From the NCBI GenBank assembly GCA_029060405.1, contig JAIDUB010000062.1, forward strand, positions 1 through 51,917: a stretch of DNA of 51,917 nucleotides. Reading direction: 5' to 3'. The notes below the pieces were generated by a model. The model saw only the letters and a program-made list of their open reading frames with translations. It did no database searches and was not told where the DNA came from. Within the stretch, counting starts at the first letter, position 1. Every line of letters starts with the position of its first letter. This document shows, one piece after another, positions 18,945-51,280 of the stretch. The DNA is from Duncaniella sp. (lineage in GTDB: Bacteria; Bacteroidota; Bacteroidia; Bacteroidales; Muribaculaceae). The position numbers were made by a program, and so were the translations under genes.

Positions 18945-18952
18945 TACTTTTG
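18945..18952 (+). promoter_or_regulatory. Upstream -7 box of the secreted cassette
   Basis: TACTTTTG matches TAnnTTTG and lies 86 bases before the ATG at 19038. With the box at 18987 it suggests tandem promoters. Confidence 0.45.
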
Positions 18953-18986
18953 CATATAATAGTTGCAATTTTATTGAAAATATTTG

Positions 18987-18994
18987 TAACTTTG
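18987..18994 (+). promoter_or_regulatory. Main -7 box of the secreted cassette
   Basis: TAACTTTG, with a TTG (18963-18965) 21 bases upstream as a plausible -33 element. The leader is about 40 bases. Confidence 0.6.
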
Positions 18995-19037: not shown

Positions 19038-21203
19038 ATGAAGAAAATCTACACATTTCTATTGTGGATGGTCGCCGCATTAATCTGCGTACCGGTAATG
19101 TCGGCCAAGACTTTCACAATTACCGTGGATAATCCCGATGCGGTGAAGTGCAGTAACCCGTCAGACTATCAGGTAGTTCCCTGGGATGAAAACAATTCTA
19201 TAGAATTCACACTGGAATCGGAGCCATGGATCCCCCTTAACGCCGCCCCGGGTTATCTTATTACCAAGATCGAGACTCAGTCGGGCACCGAGCTCTTTAG
19301 TGGTAAGACAACGAGCCAGTCAATCAATTCCGGTTTACTTGTTGATGGCGATGTAGTGCTTGTGTCATCAGCCGAAAAGGAACCTAAACTGGTAAAAATT
19401 ATCGGTAATCCCGATCAGGTATATGTAAGAGATGAGGAATATCATGAGCTCCATGCTGAAGATATGACCGATGGTGCATGGAATATTGAGCTGAAAAGTG
19501 ACTATGGCTCGTTCTATGTGTATGCCAATGACGGTTATAAGATCACATCGGTGAAGAATCAGGATGGCGAAAGCTTCCTCTATGGAGTATCTTCTTCCGC
19601 CTATATTGCGTCATCGAATATTCCCTATGGTCTCACCACTCTTACTGTTGAGTCAAAGTCTGAGGCAGAGATTTACGATGGCCATGTGAAAGTTAACGTG
19701 GCCGGCGATCCTGAAATGGTTGCCATGAAGTTTGACAACTCATGGTCAAAAGTACCCCTTAAGGCCGGTGAGAACGATGTTTACTTCGATACCGCTACCT
19801 CGTTCCCCATCACTATCGAGCATAGTTACAATAGCTCGTATAATCCTGAGAGTCTCTACAAAGTATCGCTCAACGGTATTCTGCTTGAAGCTGTAAATCG
19901 TGTGTATACATTCGAATCCCTCAACTACGATGATGTGATCGATGTTGAGGTGGATGCTCCTGCTAAGGATATCAAGGTAAGCATTGCATTTGCCGATGAT
20001 GAGTCGCGCGAAGCTGTGAAATCAATTTCATTGGGCGGCGAGAATATCGATCTTGACAACTGCAAGTCTATCGATACCACCACCGGCAAGAAGATCACTT
20101 TTGAACTGGATTATTCAAACTACAACGTTACCCTCACCGAGAACGGTGAGCCTGTAGATCTCTACTACGGTTCTTACTCTAAGAAATTCACTGAGGAACT
20201 TGATTATGAATACCTTATTACAGCCAAGGCTCTCGAGCCTCTCAAGGTAACTGTGATCTGTGAGAATTTTGAACATCTCAAGGTTGCAGCGGACTACTCC
20301 GGTAATGATCAGTATACCCTTTCAGGTGTAGAATCAGTGCTGTCCGTGAAGCCCGCCGATAATTATACTTATTTCACGGCTGACGAAGGCTGGTTCATCA
20401 AGACTATAAAGGACGCTGATACAGATGAAGACCTTTCAACCTCATTCTATGTCACCGACGGAATGAATATCTTTGTTGAGGTAGAAGAGTTTGTCCGCGA
20501 CAAGCATTTCGTCCTCTACACTGAGCCCGATGTATGGAATTATCTTACCATGGTGCTCAATCCCTACAGTTGGGATTTCCGCAAGCAGTTTGAACCCGAA
20601 CCCGGTTACTCTACCATAGCTTACAACGATTCTGACCGTCCCTTCGGTATCAGCGGCTACGATGAGCGCGGTTATCAAGACGGTGCACCCGCTGTGTTCC
20701 TCAATGGTGAACTCTGTGAGAATCAGTATGGTTCATATCCCGCTCTTGAAAATGTAGAGGATGGCGACGTGATTAAGATCATGCGCAACGATGCTCCTCT
20801 CCACGATGTAACCTACAGCGTGGCTGAAGGTGTTGAGGTAACCGTGCGCCACGACCTCGTTACAACCGTAGACCACACTGCCGCCCACTCTGTACACGCA
20901 GGTACTGAAATCCACGTGATTCCCGCCCATGCAGGTACTGTAAAGGTTAATGCCGGCGAAACCGAGCTTGTGGCCGATGAGGATGGTAAATTCGTCCACA
21001 CCGTTACCGAGCCCGTGGAAATCGTTATCGCCCACTCAGGTTCATCGTCGATCCTTGACATAGAGGCAGCAGCCAATGAAGCAGTTGCAGTGTATAATCT
21101 TCAGGGTGTATGCGTGCGCAAGGCCGCAACTCCCGCTGAAATCAGCACCCTCCCTGCCGGTGTATACGTAACCGCCGCAGGCAAGAAAATTGTAGTGAAA
21201 TAA
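19038..21203 (+). CDS. Large secreted repeat protein with C-terminal sorting-type tail
   Basis: 721 residues. The signal peptide ends near residue 23 (...VPVMSAK). The body to about residue 500 reads as five diverged beta-rich units of ~90-100 residues, starting near FTITVDNPDAV, KLVKIIGNPDQV, HVKVNVAGDPEMV, KDIKVSIAFADD and PLKVTVICENFE. The last ~50 residues (VAVYNLQGVCVRK ... LPAGVYVTAAGKKIVVK) resemble the type A tail recognised by the type IX system (Por_Secre_tail). No enzyme motif is seen, so an adhesive or structural surface role is likely. One base separates its stop from the ATG of the protease gene, so they are translationally linked. Confidence 0.85.
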   Translation: MKKIYTFLLWMVAALICVPVMSAKTFTITVDNPDAVKCSNPSDYQVVPWDENNSIEFTLESEPWIPLNAAPGYLITKIETQSGTELFSGKTTSQSINSGLLVDGDVVLVSSAEKEPKLVKIIGNPDQVYVRDEEYHELHAEDMTDGAWNIELKSDYGSFYVYANDGYKITSVKNQDGESFLYGVSSSAYIASSNIPYGLTTLTVESKSEAEIYDGHVKVNVAGDPEMVAMKFDNSWSKVPLKAGENDVYFDTATSFPITIEHSYNSSYNPESLYKVSLNGILLEAVNRVYTFESLNYDDVIDVEVDAPAKDIKVSIAFADDESREAVKSISLGGENIDLDNCKSIDTTTGKKITFELDYSNYNVTLTENGEPVDLYYGSYSKKFTEELDYEYLITAKALEPLKVTVICENFEHLKVAADYSGNDQYTLSGVESVLSVKPADNYTYFTADEGWFIKTIKDADTDEDLSTSFYVTDGMNIFVEVEEFVRDKHFVLYTEPDVWNYLTMVLNPYSWDFRKQFEPEPGYSTIAYNDSDRPFGISGYDERGYQDGAPAVFLNGELCENQYGSYPALENVEDGDVIKIMRNDAPLHDVTYSVAEGVEVTVRHDLVTTVDHTAAHSVHAGTEIHVIPAHAGTVKVNAGETELVADEDGKFVHTVTEPVEIVIAHSGSSSILDIEAAANEAVAVYNLQGVCVRKAATPAEISTLPAGVYVTAAGKKIVVK

Positions 21204-21204
21204 C

Positions 21205-23493
21205 ATGAGAATCCTATTTTTAGCAGCAGCTCTGGCGGTAACCGCCGGGGCTGCCGCCGTTACTAAGACTGACCTCGGCAGCCGCGCGCGCATGCACTCG
21301 GCTCGTCACGGTCTCGAAGTGACCGCGGCTCAGCCGGGTCAGAAGATGAAAGTTTCGCAGAATAATGCGACCCGTAAAACAGCCGGAGAAAATGAGGTCA
21401 AGGCTTTTGTCACCCTCATTCCGGGCGCTGATGCGTCGGCTCTCGAAGCGCTTGGCGTAACACTTGAAGGCGGTCGCGGCCGCATGGTGCTCGCCGCATT
21501 TCCCGAATCGTTGCTTGACGCTATAGAGGCTCTGCCCGAGGTTGAGAGCATACGTACTGACAGCCCGGTTAAAGCCAAGATGAACATCGTGAGGGACGTG
21601 ACCGGAATAGACCGTATTCACGCCGGTATTGACCTGCCGCAGGCCTACACCGGAAAAGGAGTGGTGGCAGGAATAGTCGACGGCGGTATCGATCCCAACC
21701 ATGTCAACTTCAAGAAACCCGACGGGACTTCGCGCATAGGAAGTTTTACGTTTTTCCGTCCCACGCAGAGCGGAGACTATGTGCAGCAGACCTTCCCGGC
21801 CGATTACATCCCTGAGATAGATACCGAAACATCTGAAACTTTCCACGGCACTCACACTCTCGGCATCATGGCCGGGTCTTATACCGGAAACGTCAATGTA
21901 GCGGTAGCCAATGCCGATGGAATGACTGCTTCGACCGAGGAGGTCGCCAATCCATATTACGGTGTAGCAACCGGTGCCGATCTTGCCGTGGCGTGCGGTG
22001 CTATGAGCGACTATTACGTGGCTCTTGGTATCGAGGCGATACTCGATTACGCATACTATGAGAAATCAGCCCCGGCAGTAATAAATCTTTCGCTCGGAAG
22101 CAACCTCGGTGCTCACGACGGCTCATCGGCATTATGCCAATACCTTGATCAGGTGTCGGATCTTGACCGTGTGATATTCTGCGTGGCCGCCGGTAATGAA
22201 GGCGAGCTTCCCATAGCCCTGCACAAGACATTTACCGCCGATGATCTTTCGGTGGCAACATGTCTCCGTCCCGGCGTGGAGGTGGAAGGTTATCAGAATT
22301 TACGCTACGGTCAGGTCTATGTCTACAGCAACAACGAAGAGCAATTTGAACTTCAGGCTGTGGTAGTCAACCGCTCCCGCGGAGCAGTGGCGATGCGCAT
22401 GCCTATGGGGGCCACTTCGGGTGCCATGAAATACTGGGTGTCGTCGGCGGCATATCAGGAGGGCGACGATGACGTAGTGTCGCCGCAGCTTGCCAAGTGG
22501 TTCACCGGTTATATAGGCGTAGGCGCCGAATTCGACAGCAGTACCGGACGTTACTACGGCATTATCGACTATATGCTCTGGGACAATACGTCGGGCAACC
22601 CCGAGGGTAATTACGTAATAGGTATTCAGGCTTCGGGCAAGGAAGGTCAGCGCGTAGACTTCTACGGCGACGGTTCTTTCTGCGACTTCACTGCTTATGG
22701 AATGACCGGATATACCGACGGTATGACCGATGGTACGATTTCCGACGTTGCATGCGGCCTTAATACAATATCGGTAGGCGCATACAATACCCGCGACTCT
22801 TGGGCCGCCATGGACGGTTTCGTGTACACTTATCCTCAGCCGTTCCCGGCCGGTGAAATTTCGGGTTATTCGTCATACGGGTCGCTCCCCGACGGCCGGT
22901 CGCTCCCCGAGATATGCGCTCCCGGTTCGACCGTGATATCATCAACCAACGAGTATTATATACTCGAAAACTTCCTCGGCGATGAACTGCGCTCGGCTTA
23001 CTTGGAGGCCGACGGCCGCGGCTATTCATGGCAGCAGTGTATCGGAACATCAATGGCCACTCCCGTAGTGAGCGGTACCATCGCTTTGTGGCTCGAGGCT
23101 GACCCCACACTTACCTATAAGGAAGTAAAGGAGATAATTGCCGAGACTGCCGTGAAAGATTCTTATGTGCTCGCCGACAATCCCGCGCGCTGGGGCGCCG
23201 GCAAGCTCGATGCCTATGCCGGATTGCGTAAGGTACTTGCCCAGACAGGTATTGCCGGTGTCGAGGCCGATAAAGAGACGCTTGTAATCACCCCGGCCGG
23301 CATGCGCAGCTTTGCCGTTACACTTCCCGGAGCGCTGTCGCTTGACCTCAATCTGTACTCCGTATCGGGTGCTTCCGTAAAGGCCATGCACGCCGCGGGA
23401 GCGGAAACCGTGATAGATCTTTCCGATGTACCTGCAGGTATCTATCTGCTTAATGTCAACGGCAGCATGACCCGCAAAATAGTCGTAAAGTAA
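21205..23493 (+). CDS. Secreted subtilisin-like serine protease (family S8) with sorting-type tail
   Basis: 762 residues. After a signal peptide (about 1-17) comes an inhibitor-I9-like propeptide region (to about 125), then the peptidase domain. The catalytic triad is Asp159 (IVDGGID), His214 (HGTHTLG) and Ser616 (GTSMATP), with the oxyanion Asn331 in VAAGNEG. All are intact, so it should be active. A long insertion of beta-rich sequence lies between Asn331 and Ser616, as in multi-domain S8 enzymes. The C-terminus (LYSVSGASVK ... VPAGIYLLNVNG...KIVVK) resembles the type IX sorting tail. It is the middle gene of a secreted three-gene cassette; its substrate may be a partner protein or a host protein. 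Confidence 0.94.
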   Translation: MRILFLAAALAVTAGAAAVTKTDLGSRARMHSARHGLEVTAAQPGQKMKVSQNNATRKTAGENEVKAFVTLIPGADASALEALGVTLEGGRGRMVLAAFPESLLDAIEALPEVESIRTDSPVKAKMNIVRDVTGIDRIHAGIDLPQAYTGKGVVAGIVDGGIDPNHVNFKKPDGTSRIGSFTFFRPTQSGDYVQQTFPADYIPEIDTETSETFHGTHTLGIMAGSYTGNVNVAVANADGMTASTEEVANPYYGVATGADLAVACGAMSDYYVALGIEAILDYAYYEKSAPAVINLSLGSNLGAHDGSSALCQYLDQVSDLDRVIFCVAAGNEGELPIALHKTFTADDLSVATCLRPGVEVEGYQNLRYGQVYVYSNNEEQFELQAVVVNRSRGAVAMRMPMGATSGAMKYWVSSAAYQEGDDDVVSPQLAKWFTGYIGVGAEFDSSTGRYYGIIDYMLWDNTSGNPEGNYVIGIQASGKEGQRVDFYGDGSFCDFTAYGMTGYTDGMTDGTISDVACGLNTISVGAYNTRDSWAAMDGFVYTYPQPFPAGEISGYSSYGSLPDGRSLPEICAPGSTVISSTNEYYILENFLGDELRSAYLEADGRGYSWQQCIGTSMATPVVSGTIALWLEADPTLTYKEVKEIIAETAVKDSYVLADNPARWGAGKLDAYAGLRKVLAQTGIAGVEADKETLVITPAGMRSFAVTLPGALSLDLNLYSVSGASVKAMHAAGAETVIDLSDVPAGIYLLNVNGSMTRKIVVK

Positions 23494-23533
23494 TCACAAC
23501 TCCATCACGCTGTAACTCTTTCTAATCATCACA

Positions 23534-26500
23534 ATGAATATTTCAACAATTATCTCACGCATGGCCCTTGCCGGGGCCATGACGATGGGAGCTTTGACCG
23601 CTTCGGCCGAAGATCCTATCATCACTTTTCATACAAACGTGTATGATAATGTAGGCGAGACCAATGCCTTTCACTTTTACCTCGGAGCCAAGGAACCCAT
23701 TTATGTAGATGTGGATTGCGGATTCGGAAGCATCGAGACCGAAGTGGGCGTAGCTGTTTTTGACCCCGAAGCCGGAGGTATTGCAGGTACCGCTATATCG
23801 TGCACCGTGTCGCAGGAGGGTATCGTAAAAATTTACGGTGACGCTTCAAAAATCGATTATATCGATATGGAAGGTTGCTATATCTCCGAAATTTCCTTCC
23901 CTCAGCTCACGGAAGTGGAGATTCTGAATCTTTCCTACAACGAGCTCAAAGGACTTGATCTCAGTCACATGTCGAAACTTCAGGCTCTATATCTGGGGAG
24001 CAATCCTTTTTCGGAGACTCCGCTGCTCATAGGCCCTGACAAGCCTGATCTCACAATCCTTTCCTTGGATATTATTGACAATCTCGACCCTTCATTTGAT
24101 ATGGCCGATTATCCGGCGCTGCGTTCATTTGAAGCGTGGCATGTACCCACTCTTACCCGGATAGATCCCACCAACTGCCCCAATCTGCTGCAGCTGTCGA
24201 TAGATCTGACCAATGTGGAGTCAATAGATATTTCCAAGAATCCCAATCTGCTCATACTCAATGTAGCTGATACGAAGATTACGGAACTCGACCTTTCCAA
24301 CAATCCGTATCTCACCGAACTCTACTGCGGACACATGGCCGCCGGTTACGGGCAATATGCGATGACATCCCTCAACCTCGGATCGAAGCCCAATCTACAG
24401 CGCCTGTTCTGTCAGGGCAACGCGCTTACCACGCTCGACGTATCGGGCTGCCCGAAACTTACTGACCTGTCGTGCTCCTACAACTATCTCACTGAACTCT
24501 CGCTGGATGCGAATAAGGAGCTGGTCAACCTGAACATCGCTATGAATCTCTTCACATTTGCCACGCTGCCCGATCAGAGAGATACGTTTAACGAATATTA
24601 CTATTATCAGCGTCCCATGAGTATCGACCGCTCTTATGCCGTGGGTACGACGCTCGATTTCAGTCAGCAGGTGCTCCGCGAGGGTTCGACCACCAAGGGA
24701 TATCTGTACAAAGTGTCGGAAGAGTCGCCTAATTTCCCGGAACTGCTTGAAGATGAATATTACACGTATGCCGACGGCAAGATAACTCTCAATAAAGCTC
24801 TTACCGACAGCGTGCAGGTGTCTTTCACCAACGACCTGTTTGCTGAATATCCGCTTTCTACCTCCAAGTTTATGGTCAAGACCGCATCGGAGATAGGCAA
24901 GCCTTCGCCCGTTGTCGAACTGACTTTCTATCCTACGGTTAAGGATATCGCGCTGAGCGTGGGTATGCAGGGAGCGTCGGCCGAATCACCGCTGCATTTC
25001 AAGGTGGATTTCGGTAACGGTCAGCTTGTAGATTTCACCGCTGTTTCGTCGGGGTTACCCGAAACTCCCAATGTGACCGGTACCCGCACAGGCCACGTCA
25101 CCATATATATGCCCGAGAATACCGATATCTCGGCTTTCGGTATCGACGGCCAGCGACTTATGTCGGCCGACGTGTCGCGAGCCAAAACCCTCGAGCGGCT
25201 TGCGATTACCGATTGCCAGCTGTCGGCCATCGATCTTAAATGGAACCGTTGCCTGTCGTCACTCGACCTTTCTGGCAATAATCTCTCGACTATTGACCTT
25301 AGCGAGCCTAACGGAAGCTATGGCAAAAACGTGCTCAGTGACTTTAAGGCTGCACGCAACCGTCTGACCGAAGTGGTATTCAGCACTCGCACCTGCTTGC
25401 AATCTCTTGACCTGTCAGACAATGATTTGGCAGCTCTTGACCTCCTTAAATTTTCAGCTCTCACATATCTTGATCTTTCAGGCAATCAGTTGACCGAAGT
25501 GGATCTCCGTGACCTCGAATCGATAGTTACCATGAATCTTTCCGGCAATAACCTCTCGGAAATCTCCCTGCTGGATTATCTGCCGCTCGAGTCACTGAAT
25601 ATCTCGGGAAACTACTTTACGTTTGCCACACTTCCTGCGCCCGGAGCGGTAACCGAATATATCTATGCGCCGCAGGCGCCCGTTTCTCTCCCCGCGAAGG
25701 CTCCATCCATCAATCTGTCGGATAACTATGTTGAAATCGACGGTGCTGTAACCCAATATGACTGGGTGATGAATGCTACCGGCGCACCCGTGCCCGCCGG
25801 TGCGGTAACGTCGACCGGTAACGGCCTTTTCCGGTTCGCCGATCCTGATCTGGGAGAGGTGCGTTGTGAAATGACTCACGCCGCATTCCCCGATTTCAAA
25901 GGTGCGGCTGTATACACCACCACTCCGGTGCAGACCGCTTCAATGCCTACGTATGTATTTGCGGCATTCACGACTTTGGAAGACGGTGTGGCCGAGCTTA
26001 CCATGCGCTCCACAAAACCTGATGTAGGCGTATATATCGACTGGGAGGGCAATGGTTATCTCGAGCAGTATGTGCTTACTGACAAGCCATTAAGTTTCGA
26101 GGTGAAAACCAAGGCCGGGGCCGATGTGAAGTGCTACAGCTATGATGAGGATAATTGTGTGGATGTGTTCTCATTCGGAGGTGCGAAATTGGCATCGATC
26201 GACGCATCTCGCATGATGAACCTCGTTAACTTCACCTGTGCCAATTCAGGCCTTAAGCTACAGAATATTTCATTGCCATTGTGCAAGGAAACCCTTGAGG
26301 AACTCAGCCTTGCCGGAAATGAAATAGAGTCGATTGACTTGAGCGACTATACCGCCCTGCGCATGCTCAATCTCTCGGAAAACAAGCTCACTGAGTTTGA
26401 CTCATCTCCTTTCAAGAAGTTGGAGGTGCTTTACCTTGCGTATAATAACCTTACTTCGGTTAAGCTCGACAATGCCTTGCTGTGGGAAACTGTGCTTATA

Positions 26501-27145
26501 GGAAATAAACTTGAGGATATTGATCTGAGTCATATTCCGACGATGCAGCAACTGTTTCTCTCGGATAATCTGTTGACTCATCTGGATGTTTCGGCAATGC
26601 CCCGACTGAAGGATCTCTTTATCGATCAGAATTACTTTACATTTGCCACACTGCCGGTTATCAGTATCAACCGATATGTGTATGCCAATCAGGCCATGCT
26701 CACTGTGACACCTGAGGACGGTTATATCGTTGACCTTTCATCGCAGGTTACGTGTCAGGGCACTCCCACTGTCTATACATGGTATATCGATTCACCCTAT
26801 TACGATGAAGATGGCAGCCTCGTAGGCGAGAATCTCTATGAAGGTGATGAGTATGAGATCAGCGGTGGTGTGACCACATTCCTCAAGCCCTTTACCCACA
26901 TAATGTGCGTGATGACCAATACGCGTCTGCCCAATATCGTGCTTTATACCGATTTCATCGATGTAAATCCCAAGCAGGACGGTATCGAAGAAATTGCATC
27001 GGTATCTGATTCGCTTCCCGCGCGCTGGTATGATCTCAGCGGCGCATGCGTGGCCGAGACTGTAGCCGGTGAGCGGCCGTCGCTTAAGTCAGGTATCTAT
27101 GTGCGTCTTACTTCGCAGGGAGCTTCAAAAGTGCTCGTGCGCTGA
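23534..27145 (+). CDS. Secreted leucine-rich-repeat protein built of three large modules
   Basis: 1203 residues with a signal peptide ending near TASAE (residue 26). Each of three modules of about 340-355 residues has a beta-rich front domain, a row of 21-23 residue LRRs (LDLSGNNLSTIDLS type), a cap N-x-F-TFATLP (near residues 340, 695 and 1035), and a following Ig-like or beta segment. The C-terminus (WYDLSGACVAE ... LKSGIYVRLTSQGASKVLVR) is a sorting-type tail. Such LRR surface proteins usually bind proteins or glycans. It follows the protease gene by 40 bp with no promoter box between, and is closed by a strong terminator, so it completes the cassette. Confidence 0.9.
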   Translation: MNISTIISRMALAGAMTMGALTASAEDPIITFHTNVYDNVGETNAFHFYLGAKEPIYVDVDCGFGSIETEVGVAVFDPEAGGIAGTAISCTVSQEGIVKIYGDASKIDYIDMEGCYISEISFPQLTEVEILNLSYNELKGLDLSHMSKLQALYLGSNPFSETPLLIGPDKPDLTILSLDIIDNLDPSFDMADYPALRSFEAWHVPTLTRIDPTNCPNLLQLSIDLTNVESIDISKNPNLLILNVADTKITELDLSNNPYLTELYCGHMAAGYGQYAMTSLNLGSKPNLQRLFCQGNALTTLDVSGCPKLTDLSCSYNYLTELSLDANKELVNLNIAMNLFTFATLPDQRDTFNEYYYYQRPMSIDRSYAVGTTLDFSQQVLREGSTTKGYLYKVSEESPNFPELLEDEYYTYADGKITLNKALTDSVQVSFTNDLFAEYPLSTSKFMVKTASEIGKPSPVVELTFYPTVKDIALSVGMQGASAESPLHFKVDFGNGQLVDFTAVSSGLPETPNVTGTRTGHVTIYMPENTDISAFGIDGQRLMSADVSRAKTLERLAITDCQLSAIDLKWNRCLSSLDLSGNNLSTIDLSEPNGSYGKNVLSDFKAARNRLTEVVFSTRTCLQSLDLSDNDLAALDLLKFSALTYLDLSGNQLTEVDLRDLESIVTMNLSGNNLSEISLLDYLPLESLNISGNYFTFATLPAPGAVTEYIYAPQAPVSLPAKAPSINLSDNYVEIDGAVTQYDWVMNATGAPVPAGAVTSTGNGLFRFADPDLGEVRCEMTHAAFPDFKGAAVYTTTPVQTASMPTYVFAAFTTLEDGVAELTMRSTKPDVGVYIDWEGNGYLEQYVLTDKPLSFEVKTKAGADVKCYSYDEDNCVDVFSFGGAKLASIDASRMMNLVNFTCANSGLKLQNISLPLCKETLEELSLAGNEIESIDLSDYTALRMLNLSENKLTEFDSSPFKKLEVLYLAYNNLTSVKLDNALLWETVLIGNKLEDIDLSHIPTMQQLFLSDNLLTHLDVSAMPRLKDLFIDQNYFTFATLPVISINRYVYANQAMLTVTPEDGYIVDLSSQVTCQGTPTVYTWYIDSPYYDEDGSLVGENLYEGDEYEISGGVTTFLKPFTHIMCVMTNTRLPNIVLYTDFIDVNPKQDGIEEIASVSDSLPARWYDLSGACVAETVAGERPSLKSGIYVRLTSQGASKVLVR

Positions 27146-27174
27146 CGTGCGACACACTTTTTGAAATGTATAAT

Positions 27175-27207
27175 CCCCCGGTTCGGTTCCGAGCCGGGGG
27201 ATTTTTT
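27175..27207 (+). terminator. Rho-independent terminator of the secreted cassette
   Basis: A 12 bp stem, CCCCCGGTTCGG with CCGAGCCGGGGG (one G-T pair), loop TTCC, followed by A and six T. Confidence 0.92.
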
Positions 27208-27473: not shown

Positions 27474-27986
27474 TCAGAATTTATATGTTACGCCCACCTG
27501 CAGGAGACCTTGGGCACCGAATCCGAGTTCACCGAAGATACCGAATCCTTTGCTGAGATCCACTTTCGCACCCACGGGTGTGATCTGGTAAGCGAAATAT
27601 GATTTGTTGCCTATGCCGTCGGCTGCGAAGTGGGTGATGTCGACACCTACACCTAACTTGGCATAGAGTTTTACGATGCTGTTTTTATAATACTGGTAGC
27701 GTCCGTTGACCATTACTACATGATAGTAGAGGTCGGAATCAGTTCCCTTGAATGATGAACTTGAAAATGTATAGCTCACGCCGGCATCGATCTTGGGAGC
27801 GACGGGAAGATATACACCTGCGGTAAGCGACCCCCATGCGTTGTTGACATTTCCGTAACCGCCGTGCATATCGGTTGCGTCCATCTGGGTGTATCCGCCG
27901 TAGCTTAGTTGAATTTCAGGAGTGAGAGCCGATGCAGTAGCGGTCATGCCTGCGACTGCCAAGAGCGAGAGTAAAAACTTTTTCAT
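27474..27986 (-). CDS. Small outer-membrane beta-barrel protein
   Basis: 170 residues with a signal peptide (MKKFLLSLLAVAGMTATASA). The mature ~150 residues alternate polar and aromatic/hydrophobic positions (for example SLTAGVYLPVAPKIDAGVSYTF) and end in GVTYKF with a terminal Phe, the usual recognition signal for the BAM machinery. The size suits an eight-stranded barrel of the OmpX/OprF-N type. Likely role: outer-membrane structure or a small pore; nothing points to a substrate. It is divergent from the FKBP gene and followed by the DUF6582-like gene. Confidence 0.8.
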   Translation of the reverse strand: MKKFLLSLLAVAGMTATASALTPEIQLSYGGYTQMDATDMHGGYGNVNNAWGSLTAGVYLPVAPKIDAGVSYTFSSSSFKGTDSDLYYHVVMVNGRYQYYKNSIVKLYAKLGVGVDITHFAADGIGNKSYFAYQITPVGAKVDLSKGFGIFGELGFGAQGLLQVGVTYKF

Positions 27987-48784: not shown

Positions 48785-51280
48785 ATGAAAAAAATCTTTA
48801 CGCTATTTGCTGCGACCTTGCTGTCTATTGGGGCTTGGGCGCAGGAGAGTGTATCCGTCACATGGACATTAGGAGCAAAAGTCTATGAAAATATTGACGG
48901 TGTACCATCTGACCAAAATGCATTAACCGGTATCCTCACAAAGGGTAGCAAAATGAATGGCAAAGGTTCACGTACAGCTAAACCATCGAGCGGGGATATC
49001 AAAATGACAACATGGTCTCAAGCCCAAAAGGGAGGTTACGATCCCGATACTTATGTGGAATTCACAGTAACTCCTAAGGATGGTTATTCATTCAAACCTA
49101 CCAGTATTTCATTCGATCATGGTTCCGTGAAAAACGGCATGGGACGCTATGATGTTGAATATATAAATGGTGAGAATGTAGTTTCTGTTGCTAAAACTAA
49201 AACCAGCACCCGCATAAACGAGTCTACTGATGATGCGAGCCTTAATTATCATTGCTCATACGCCCTGAAAGATACTGAAGCTACTGAGGATGCCCACGTT
49301 GTAAGAATTTATTTTTATAGTAGCTCAGCTACCGATGGCAGCTCGCGTGAATTCGGTCTCGCTAATGTAATAATTTCCGGTGTAGCTGAAGCTCTTGGTG
49401 AGACTCGCGAGGCTGCTGATATTAATTGGTCCGTTGAGGAACTGGCATATAAGATACGTGATAATGTTCCCGCTCTTCCCGAACTGCAAAATCCTCATAA
49501 TCTTGCAATCACCTACACTTCCACTAACGCTGAAGTTGCCGAAGTCAATGAAGCCGGAGAGGTCGTACTGAAAAATACTAAAGAAGGTATTGCTTTCATT
49601 ACAGCGGATTTTGACGGCGATGACAATTATCGACCCGGCTCTTCGACACTTAAAGTTACTGTCACTACCAACAGAGTAGTGAATAAACTTGTTTATTTCG
49701 ATGGTGAAAAACTCAGTCCCGAAGTAGACAAAATTTATAAGGCAGAGCTTGACAGCTATCCTACCGGAGAGATCTATAAGGATCGTTGCCTTACAATTGA
49801 AACTCGTAGCGAGACTATCAATGGTAGTGTAGCAGGTGAATATGCCGGTCAAAAATTCACTAAGTCTATTCAAGTAAAAGTAAATAGTGAGCCCAGTGAA
49901 GAGGATCCTTACGGTAATGAGTACGGCGACAGTGAATCTGAAGCCCGCAAGACGACTTCTCTTATCGTTAAGCCTAATGTTGACCTTACTCTCTATGTAT
50001 ACGGCCGTCGCCAGACAGTGGAGAACGCCGATAAGTATGAAGAAATCGACGACGAGGAAAACAATGTAATCACCTGCAACCACTATTATACTTTTGTAGC
50101 AAACGATGGCAAGTCACTGAAATTTGACGACACCGATGAACCTACCGTAGTTCTTGAAAAGAACGTTTACCTTGGCGAATGGGTGGGTACTGACTACGTG
50201 TTCGGTATCTCGGAAGTCGAACTTCAGGCCGGTCAGGAATACAATATGTATGCTATTGGTACCACCTATCAGGTCAACGGTATCGGATATGTCGAAAAAG
50301 AAAAGAATCCCAACGTCATGCCCAGCGACGATAACATCATCGCATTCGTATCTGGTACCAACGGTGGATCAATGACCGACGATAACGGCTTCACAGTAGC
50401 TCGTACCGGTGCAGGCAAACTTTCAAGCGGTAACAATATCATGGTTTACGGTAAGAATTACACCTCGACCAAGATGAAGGGTATCATTACCGACGACGAG
50501 CAGATCACTTACACCATCACTGCTCCCGAAGGCAAAGTTATCTCTGCCGTAACTGTATATGCTTATGCAAGTAACCAAAAGACAGATGATGCTATCTATT
50601 TCACCAAAGTAGGTAACCACACATTTGCTGAAGGTGAAACCGAAGCAATCGCTTCAACCGATGCAAAAACTCCTGTAGTTAACAGCTTTAACCACATCAT
50701 GCTCAACTCGGTTGACATGGAACTTCACACCGGCCTTAACGATGATATCTGCGCTGTTTTTGAAGTTACAATTTTCAATAAAGAGAATGCACCCGCTGCT
50801 CCTATATTGACCGTTGACGGCGAGGAACACACCGGTGAAGAATTTGAATTTGAAAGTGAATCTTCTGTTGTGATCAATCCTGTTGCTGACCACCACAACA
50901 TCTACTTCCACTTCGCCGCTGATGAGGCTCAGGCTGCTCCCGCTAAGGTGAAACTCTATGCCGAAGGCGCTACTGCTGCACCCGTTGCTTCTATGGTACA
51001 CGAAGGTAAGACATTTACACTCATGCCCGAAGAAGGTGTGACAATCGACAAGGCCGGTACACTTTCCTTCTTCGCTCATGACCCCGTAAACGACCTCACC
51101 AGTGAAGTCAAGACTCTCAAGGTTAAGGGCAACGGCGTTGTTACCGGTATCGAAAACGTATCTGTTGACGCTGCTGCTGAGGTTGAGTACTTCAATCTGC
51201 AGGGTATCCGCGTTGCTAATCCCGAAAACGGTGTATTCATCCGTCGTCAGGGTAAGGAAGTTAAGAAGGTGGTTCTCTAA
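48785..51280 (+). CDS. Large secreted protein with Ig-like domain and sorting-type tail
   Basis: 831 residues with a signal peptide (MKKIFTLFAATLLSIGAWAQ). Residues ~25-200 form a beta-rich domain. Residues ~215-300 resemble a bacterial Ig-like (BIG2) domain (ITYTSTNAEVAEVNEAGEVVLKN...FDGDDNYRPGS...VTVT). Further beta domains follow. The last ~45 residues (EVEYFNLQGIRVANPENGVFIRRQGKEVKKVVL) resemble the type IX sorting tail, as in the cassette at 19038-27145. No catalytic motif is visible; a surface or adhesive role is likely. A hairpin repeat and a terminator follow the stop. Confidence 0.85.
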   Translation: MKKIFTLFAATLLSIGAWAQESVSVTWTLGAKVYENIDGVPSDQNALTGILTKGSKMNGKGSRTAKPSSGDIKMTTWSQAQKGGYDPDTYVEFTVTPKDGYSFKPTSISFDHGSVKNGMGRYDVEYINGENVVSVAKTKTSTRINESTDDASLNYHCSYALKDTEATEDAHVVRIYFYSSSATDGSSREFGLANVIISGVAEALGETREAADINWSVEELAYKIRDNVPALPELQNPHNLAITYTSTNAEVAEVNEAGEVVLKNTKEGIAFITADFDGDDNYRPGSSTLKVTVTTNRVVNKLVYFDGEKLSPEVDKIYKAELDSYPTGEIYKDRCLTIETRSETINGSVAGEYAGQKFTKSIQVKVNSEPSEEDPYGNEYGDSESEARKTTSLIVKPNVDLTLYVYGRRQTVENADKYEEIDDEENNVITCNHYYTFVANDGKSLKFDDTDEPTVVLEKNVYLGEWVGTDYVFGISEVELQAGQEYNMYAIGTTYQVNGIGYVEKEKNPNVMPSDDNIIAFVSGTNGGSMTDDNGFTVARTGAGKLSSGNNIMVYGKNYTSTKMKGIITDDEQITYTITAPEGKVISAVTVYAYASNQKTDDAIYFTKVGNHTFAEGETEAIASTDAKTPVVNSFNHIMLNSVDMELHTGLNDDICAVFEVTIFNKENAPAAPILTVDGEEHTGEEFEFESESSVVINPVADHHNIYFHFAADEAQAAPAKVKLYAEGATAAPVASMVHEGKTFTLMPEEGVTIDKAGTLSFFAHDPVNDLTSEVKTLKVKGNGVVTGIENVSVDAAAEVEYFNLQGIRVANPENGVFIRRQGKEVKKVVL

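Follow-up and report, generated by a model that had tools for sequence, protein, structure and literature searches.

Several described systems stand close to the locus reported here. Dentilisin of Treponema denticola is encoded by a three-gene operon (prcB-prcA-prtP), in which a subtilisin-family surface protease goes with two surface partners; PrcA and PrcB are lipoproteins, and the cleavage of PrcA was reported to depend on PrtP (PMC8167434). The clostridial Csp proteins (CspB, CspA and CspC), subtilases with a prodomain and a beta-barrel insertion, function in spore germination, as stated in an excerpt of PMC3567191. SpBcA of Bergeyella cardium is an S8 peptidase with a propeptide and a putative cargo of the type IX secretion system (T9SS); PMC11982257 assigns it to the KP-43 subfamily and describes the propeptide as unlike the I9 domain. 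Internalin J (InlJ) of Listeria is a protein with leucine-rich repeats (LRRs). Gram-positive pilus gene clusters consist of pilin, adhesin and sortase. The locus compared with these systems is a trio of genes, A, B and C, on the forward strand of the window, i.e., the whole analysed stretch of 51,917 nucleotides of contig JAIDUB010000062.1 of Duncaniella sp. (Muribaculaceae). B encodes a subtilase with an intact, invariant active site, A a predicted rod of related beta domains and C a triple-LRR protein; the three genes recur together across genera, and their evolutionary distances are correlated beyond those of rpoB.

Genes and encoded proteins

A (19038..21203, +; 721 aa), B (21205..23493, +; 762 aa) and C (23534..27145, +; 1203 aa) are intact open reading frames (ORFs), separated by 1 nt (A-B) and 40 nt (B-C); the products are an apparently exported rod built of ca. 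7 related beta-sandwich domains and ending in a short sorting-like tail, an S8 subtilase, apparently a zymogen, and an apparently exported triple-LRR protein. C is followed by an intrinsic terminator at 27172..27203 (+; 14 pairs and a T run; z −4.9; 0/200 shuffles equally stable). In an earlier note, made from the letters of the window alone, a three-gene cassette with these gaps, an intact Asp159-His214-Ser616 triad in the protease and a single strong terminator had been described; as an observation all of this is confirmed. The note's reading of a surface system, in which the protease might mature or cut its two partners or a bound target, is supported in part, namely as to three co-transcribed, apparently exported proteins and an intact protease.

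Gene B: the Peptidase_S8 domain scored 113.5 bits (Pfam cut-off 21.8). The codons of the catalytic Asp159 (21679..21681, +), His214 (21844..21846, +) and Ser616 (23050..23052, +; in an invariant G-T-S-M motif) are in place, and the three residues, together with the oxyanion Asn331, were invariant in 21/21 and 25/25 rows of two overlapping alignments. Residues 62–120 (21388..21564, +) form a beta-alpha-beta-beta-alpha-beta prodomain in the secondary structure of the model; CspA (9pr9) and pro-subtilisins align with it starting at residues 61–65, and a low-confidence linker (124–135) follows. The catalytic domain of the model contains a CspB jellyroll-like beta insertion at ca. 335–500 (22207..22704, +; strands at 338–496, boundaries read from the model), and the match to CspB comprised 435 aligned residues spanning 129–688. 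On this model B is apparently a zymogen-type subtilase with a prodomain. A T9SS type A sorting domain was found at residues 705–762 (23317..23490, +; TIGR04183, 29.1 bits, cut-off 23), and the same model matched 21 of 25 orthologues at E ≤ 1e-3.

The predicted prodomain and inserted barrel are those of the Csp type; B, however, has a T9SS tail and remained below the cut-offs of the Csp NCBIfam models (CspBA 47.7 against 1250 bits; CspC 25.8 against 675 bits). The likeness brings with it a reading in which a ligand sensed by C (or A) triggers the release of a retained prodomain from B, as in the clostridial spore Csp system; this is very improbable, since the trio encodes no pseudoprotease partner, a common fold is no proof of common function, and retention of the prodomain is not visible in the model. 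SpBcA is like B in being a subtilase with a propeptide and a putative T9SS cargo; unlike SpBcA, B carries in its model a Csp-type insert and a prodomain alignable with pro-subtilisins, and its gene belongs to a conserved trio.

Gene A: the predicted structure is all-beta with ca. 7 domains. In a profile comparison 9/21 domain pairs gave at least 90%, and these pairs connect all seven domains; the label "repeat beta protein" given to A in the earlier note therefore holds. The model is ordered throughout except for the signal region and a linker (669–679) just before the tail, residues 681–721 (21078..21200, +), which is type A sorting-like (hhalign 97.7% to B tails; TIGR04183 14.2 bits, cut-off 23). 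The length of A is very variable (532 aa in P. pallens, L168; 1530 in G062, L063; 1802 in G042, L054; G and L designate genomes and loci), perhaps through the number of domains.

The order of that structure bears on the proposal that B is a dedicated maturation protease, which would process A and/or C into a working form or assemble them, as in the PrtP-dependent processing of PrcA. Dentilisin likewise combines a protease with two surface partners in an operon, B was distantly similar to PrtP in 22/25 orthologues, and CspB is needed to activate a cortex hydrolase via cleavage (PMC3567191, excerpt). On the other side, the modelled A, ordered except for the signal region and the pre-tail linker, offers no obvious internal site for B (a conserved cut motif was not searched for), and the Ser447Ala mutant of dentilisin still cleaved PrcA according to an excerpt of PMC8167434. 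B itself scored 57.8 bits with the PrtP model NF033595, below the cut-off of 300. Dedicated maturation is regarded as less likely than not, though as the main rival of the module proposed below.

Gene C: LRRs were recognized by two Pfam models (PF12799, 112.2 bits, cut-off 27; PF13855, 80.2 bits, cut-off 27). LRR motif positions place them in three blocks, at residues ca. 107–338 (23852..24547, +), ca. 553–695 (25190..25618, +) and ca. 909–1035 (26258..26638, +), that match one another with E values of 1e-10 to 2e-16, in accord with the triple-LRR designation proposed earlier. The best solved relative by sequence is internalin J (E 5.7e-51, family profile), and the InlJ model matched the LRRs of C in 24/24 orthologues; the score of C itself with NF033187 was 101.6 bits against a cut-off of 1700. 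C differs from internalin J in its three LRR blocks, which are separated by other domains, and in ending with a sorting-like tail (ca. 1153–1203; 26990..27142, +; hhalign 98.1% to B tails; no TIGR04183 listing at E ≤ 0.1).

Unlike the lipoprotein partners in dentilisin, those of B are a beta rod and a protein with three LRR blocks, both ending in a sorting-like tail; no PrcA or PrcB name occurred among the Pfam and NCBIfam matches of A and C, PrcA and PrcB not having been used as queries. The combination of a stacked beta-sandwich rod, a binding protein and a processing enzyme recalls the Gram-positive pilus clusters by analogy only. The earlier note knew of no named system with this gene order; likewise, titles and abstract starts of the open-licence literature contained no paper on the conserved trio. 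The parts are of known kinds, no name was found for the conserved trio, and the whole looks like a surface protease-adhesin operon.

Occurrence and gene order

Two genome sets were searched: a family set of 149 genomes, probably of Muribaculaceae, in which up to 4 C candidates were scored per genome, and an order set of 393 genomes with at most 2. Only a few first-look candidates were scored, so that all counts from the genome searches are lower bounds and rarity outside the family is weakly tested. Neighbouring genes were called by an ORF script; A was labelled by BLAST (E ≤ 1e-5) or by an HMM from the A proteins so obtained. C was found in 43/149 family genomes at E ≤ 1e-20 (17/30 genera) and in 41, including that of the window, at E ≤ 1e-100. 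B lies immediately 5' of C in 37 of these 41 carriers and A is linked to one of the two in 32; the order is A>B>C in 27 (C split by a stop in G099). Single carriers have the order B>C>A (G096), C>A truncated on the side of B where the contig stops (G045; its A rests on 93 bits), and A, A, B and C spread over two contig ends (G085); B>C lies at a contig edge in two (G141, G056). In G062 (1/41) the order is A, an additional secreted-looking gene, B, C; the additional gene (L063:5581-8790, −) is an ORF of 1069 aa that looks exported and ends in a sorting-like tail.

In a wider contig scan the best 80 of 198 stretches encoding a relative were taken. A close C was present in 32 of these 80 loci (L149–L180), 15 of them already in the family set and 17 new; the new loci comprise 12 A>B>C, 4 B>C>A and 1 B>C cut at both ends. 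One of the 12, L169, has its A split into two pieces and its C truncated where the contig stops. Hoylesella loescheii An865 and Prevotella pallens ATCC 700821 are among the new carriers. In the order set, C at E ≤ 1e-60 was found in 3/393 genomes: that of the window, one other member of the family, and one of another family (C at a contig end). The gene order, which the earlier note had proposed to look for in other Bacteroidales, is thus not unique to the strain. The genes flanking the cassette are rarely in shared clusters, close relatives excepted. The A-B gap is at least 60 nt in 24/27 gaps of the family draw, and the 1-nt gap of the window is atypical.

The B family is widespread (match at E ≤ 1e-30 in 110/149 genomes), and neither A nor C lay within four genes of non-cassette B paralogues in 20 hand-picked loci (0/20). 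Six of these 20 loci (L235, L237–L240, L244) contain tandem pairs of B-family subtilases and no A or C. Rod proteins of the A family without B or C nearby were seen in L038, L040, L047, L050, L052, L055 and L061. A chance neighbourhood of three unrelated secreted genes would fit the finding that the A and B families also occur alone; it is refuted by the recurrence of the trio in 17/30 genera (C at E ≤ 1e-20) and in Prevotella relatives, in two gene orders, together with the 0/20 B-paralogue loci adjoining A or C, and was left with practically no probability.

The same stand-alone genes bear on a further alternative: A, B and C could be separate, co-regulated public goods, three T9SS cargoes serving one niche by protein degradation, adhesion and rod formation and never complexed with one another. 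The seven stand-alone A-family loci, the B paralogues alone or paired in 20/20 sampled loci, and the six genomes in which B>C has no A beside it speak for this; the trio, however, persists through changed order and different flanks with a history that is shared and unlike that of rpoB, and its B proteins form a group of their own (below). Separate public goods are for these reasons considered unlikely.

Co-inheritance and divergence of the genes

A tree of B (75 rows; quick LG+G4, SH-aLRT only) placed 49 cassette B proteins on one side of a single branch (SH-aLRT 100) and 26 paralogues on the other, a split that speaks against separate public goods. The five B>C>A members in the tree (G096, L163, L164, L166 and L180) group in a single subclade, as would be expected if the order changed once.

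For the comparison of distances 32/41 carriers were entered and 30 matched; 2 were dropped for partial rpoB, leaving 28 genomes, 22 of them with a full A row (no A beside B and C in G052, G140, G043, G063, G065 and G056). Distances are FastTree path lengths, and binned genomes may carry a wrongly assigned rpoB (G006 falls outside its genus). Correlation coefficients r: B-C 0.88, and 0.87 given rpoB (28 genomes); A-B 0.73, and 0.72 given rpoB (22 genomes); A-C 0.67, and 0.65 given rpoB (22 genomes); values as high were obtained in 0/2000 permutations for each pair. The correlation with rpoB distances was 0.20 for B, 0.31 for C and 0.23 for A. That the distances of A, B and C correlate beyond rpoB is also in favour of dedicated maturation. 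In the trees of B and C, genera g1, g3, g4 and g20 each have members far apart, and G081 of g22 groups with a g13 genome. Such scattering of one genus is predicted by horizontal transfer of the trio as a unit, by which the trio may have moved; old duplication with loss may be an alternative source of it.

Comparison of the window with L161, the relative nearest to it, gave a dN of 0.41 for A, 0.27 for C and 0.13 for B; three flanking genes had values of 0.11, 0.05 and 0.03. Synonymous sites were near saturation, and no correction was possible for A. On these values A and C evolve fast and the enzyme B slowly.

Transcription signals

Upstream of A three −7-type motifs (TAnnTTTG) were located at 18945, 18987 and 18999; one has a spaced TTG, and this promoter-like element, TTG then TAACTTTG (18963..18994, +; pattern scan of the window), is of the Bacteroidota −33/−7 type. 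The same scan gave no TAnnTTTG motif at the A-B and B-C junctions of the window. Across the loci the motif was present before A in 18/23 gaps (shuffled mean 3.7) and before B, where A is not directly 5', in 7/8 loci (shuffled mean 1.5); in A-B gaps (3/27, shuffled mean 2.1) and B-C gaps (1/37, mean 0.2) it was at chance level. The promoter therefore belongs to whichever gene opens the trio.

Hairpins of −15 kcal/mol or below were found in A-B gaps of at least 60 nt in 24/24 cases of the family draw and in 7/8 new records (31/32 together); they start 6–83 nt past the A stop and differ in sequence (L034–L046, L125–L140 and others), z-scores of gap hairpins being computed against mononucleotide shuffles. 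A T run follows the hairpin in 10 of the 24 family-draw gaps, and in eight loci 19–48 nt lie between the hairpin and the B start. Hairpins of like strength follow C in 29/31 cases, and B-C gaps are mostly too short for one. The A-B hairpin may act by partial termination or by 3' protection, which would raise A over B and C; differential decay inside operons is known generally (PMC5927463).

The trio is flanked by a D-Ala-D-Ala carboxypeptidase gene on the opposite strand and, on the other side, by a small gene that matched no Pfam model; an FKBP gene comes next. A 170-aa gene at 27474-27986 (−) of the window has no Pfam match at 1e-5 and is present in 12/13 genomes of the genus; an 831-aa ORF at 48785-51280 (+) likewise has no Pfam match at 1e-5.

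Export

Signal peptides and similar C-terminal sorting-type tails had been ascribed to all three proteins in the earlier note; the statement on the tails needs a correction. The signal peptides of A, B and C were judged by eye; the scoring rule proved unselective, being passed by A in 26/28, B in 34/35 and C in 36/37 cases and by other ORFs in 53/112. As to the tails, B passes TIGR04183, whereas A and C fall below this curated model; their tails are homologous to that of B by hhalign, so that T9SS export of A and C stays likely on profile comparison. The machinery, the presence of which in the genome the earlier note had left to be checked, is there: SprA (2716 bits), PorU (852.6 bits) and PorV (501.2 bits), each over its cut-off; the genome has nine TIGR04183 matches. 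A second PorU-like gene (G000:C104:3522-6719, L002) scored 458.6 bits (cut-off 420) against 852.6 bits for the main PorU. SprA was found in 144/149 family genomes and 40/41 cassette carriers; since it is near-universal in the family, the presence of the type IX system is not informative on the carriers specifically.

Proposed function

B and C make up a tight pair, because the gaps between them are short, hardly any promoter motif lies between them and their shared history is the strongest; A is looser, being located before or after B-C or not nearby, and separated from the pair by a hairpin in most relatives. From the tight pair and the looser third gene follows the proposal, tentative and put at somewhat under even chances, that A, B and C are a co-transcribed, co-inherited, T9SS-exported surface module in which C binds a protein, B cuts and A serves as scaffold or display protein. 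Binding would fall to C, as an LRR receptor or adhesin resembling internalin J. B would be made inactive, with its prodomain and CspB-type inserted barrel, and then mature itself; the mature enzyme might cut a protein held by C, or a partner beside it. The rod A would serve as a scaffold or for display and would, in most relatives, probably outnumber B and C. Candidate targets of B are host mucus or diet protein, or the surface protein of a neighbour. Besides the recurrent gene order and the correlated distances, the placing of the −7 motif, the A-B hairpins, the dN values, the CspB-type fold with its invariant triad, the LRR kinship to internalin J and the T9SS parts speak for this module.

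A number of observations weigh against this module. Six carriers have B>C without an adjoining A (G052, G043, G124, G063, G140 and G065), and in G025 C stands by itself and contains a stop. In G069 the order is A>C and B is missing, the best B-family match being a 34% paralogue elsewhere; A and C kept without an adjoining B also tell against dedicated maturation. TIGR04183 at 1e-3 matched 0/23 A orthologues and 0/24 C orthologues. The concave LRR positions of C were not clearly more variable than the others (1.90 vs 1.78 bits). In carrier G063, 99% complete, no SprA candidate matched, the absence being either an assembly gap or a real loss. The A-B hairpin is absent in the window (1 nt), L161 (6 nt), L168 and L171, and hairpins of this kind are present in 4/8 B-C gaps of at least 60 nt and in 15/29 unrelated co-directional gaps of like length, so that hairpins as such are common there. 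The SprA-less G063 and the hairpins in 4/8 long B-C gaps weaken the explanation by a surface module, which is nevertheless the best found.

A bolder form of it may be put forward as a long shot: an LRR-guided, self-inhibited protease, spread horizontally in gut and oral Bacteroidales, in which recognition by C would free B from its prodomain, abundant A would display the pair, and the hairpins would set the ratio of rod to protease.

Muribaculaceae figure prominently in the guts of rodents and ruminants. The family is nearly all type IX-bearing, yet few open-licence papers mention both, as judged by titles and abstract starts. The trio offers a defined protease and an LRR protein whose substrate is directly testable; three genes kept together across genera, with order and place changing and a history unlike that of rpoB, are a good candidate for a gut-selected surface function.

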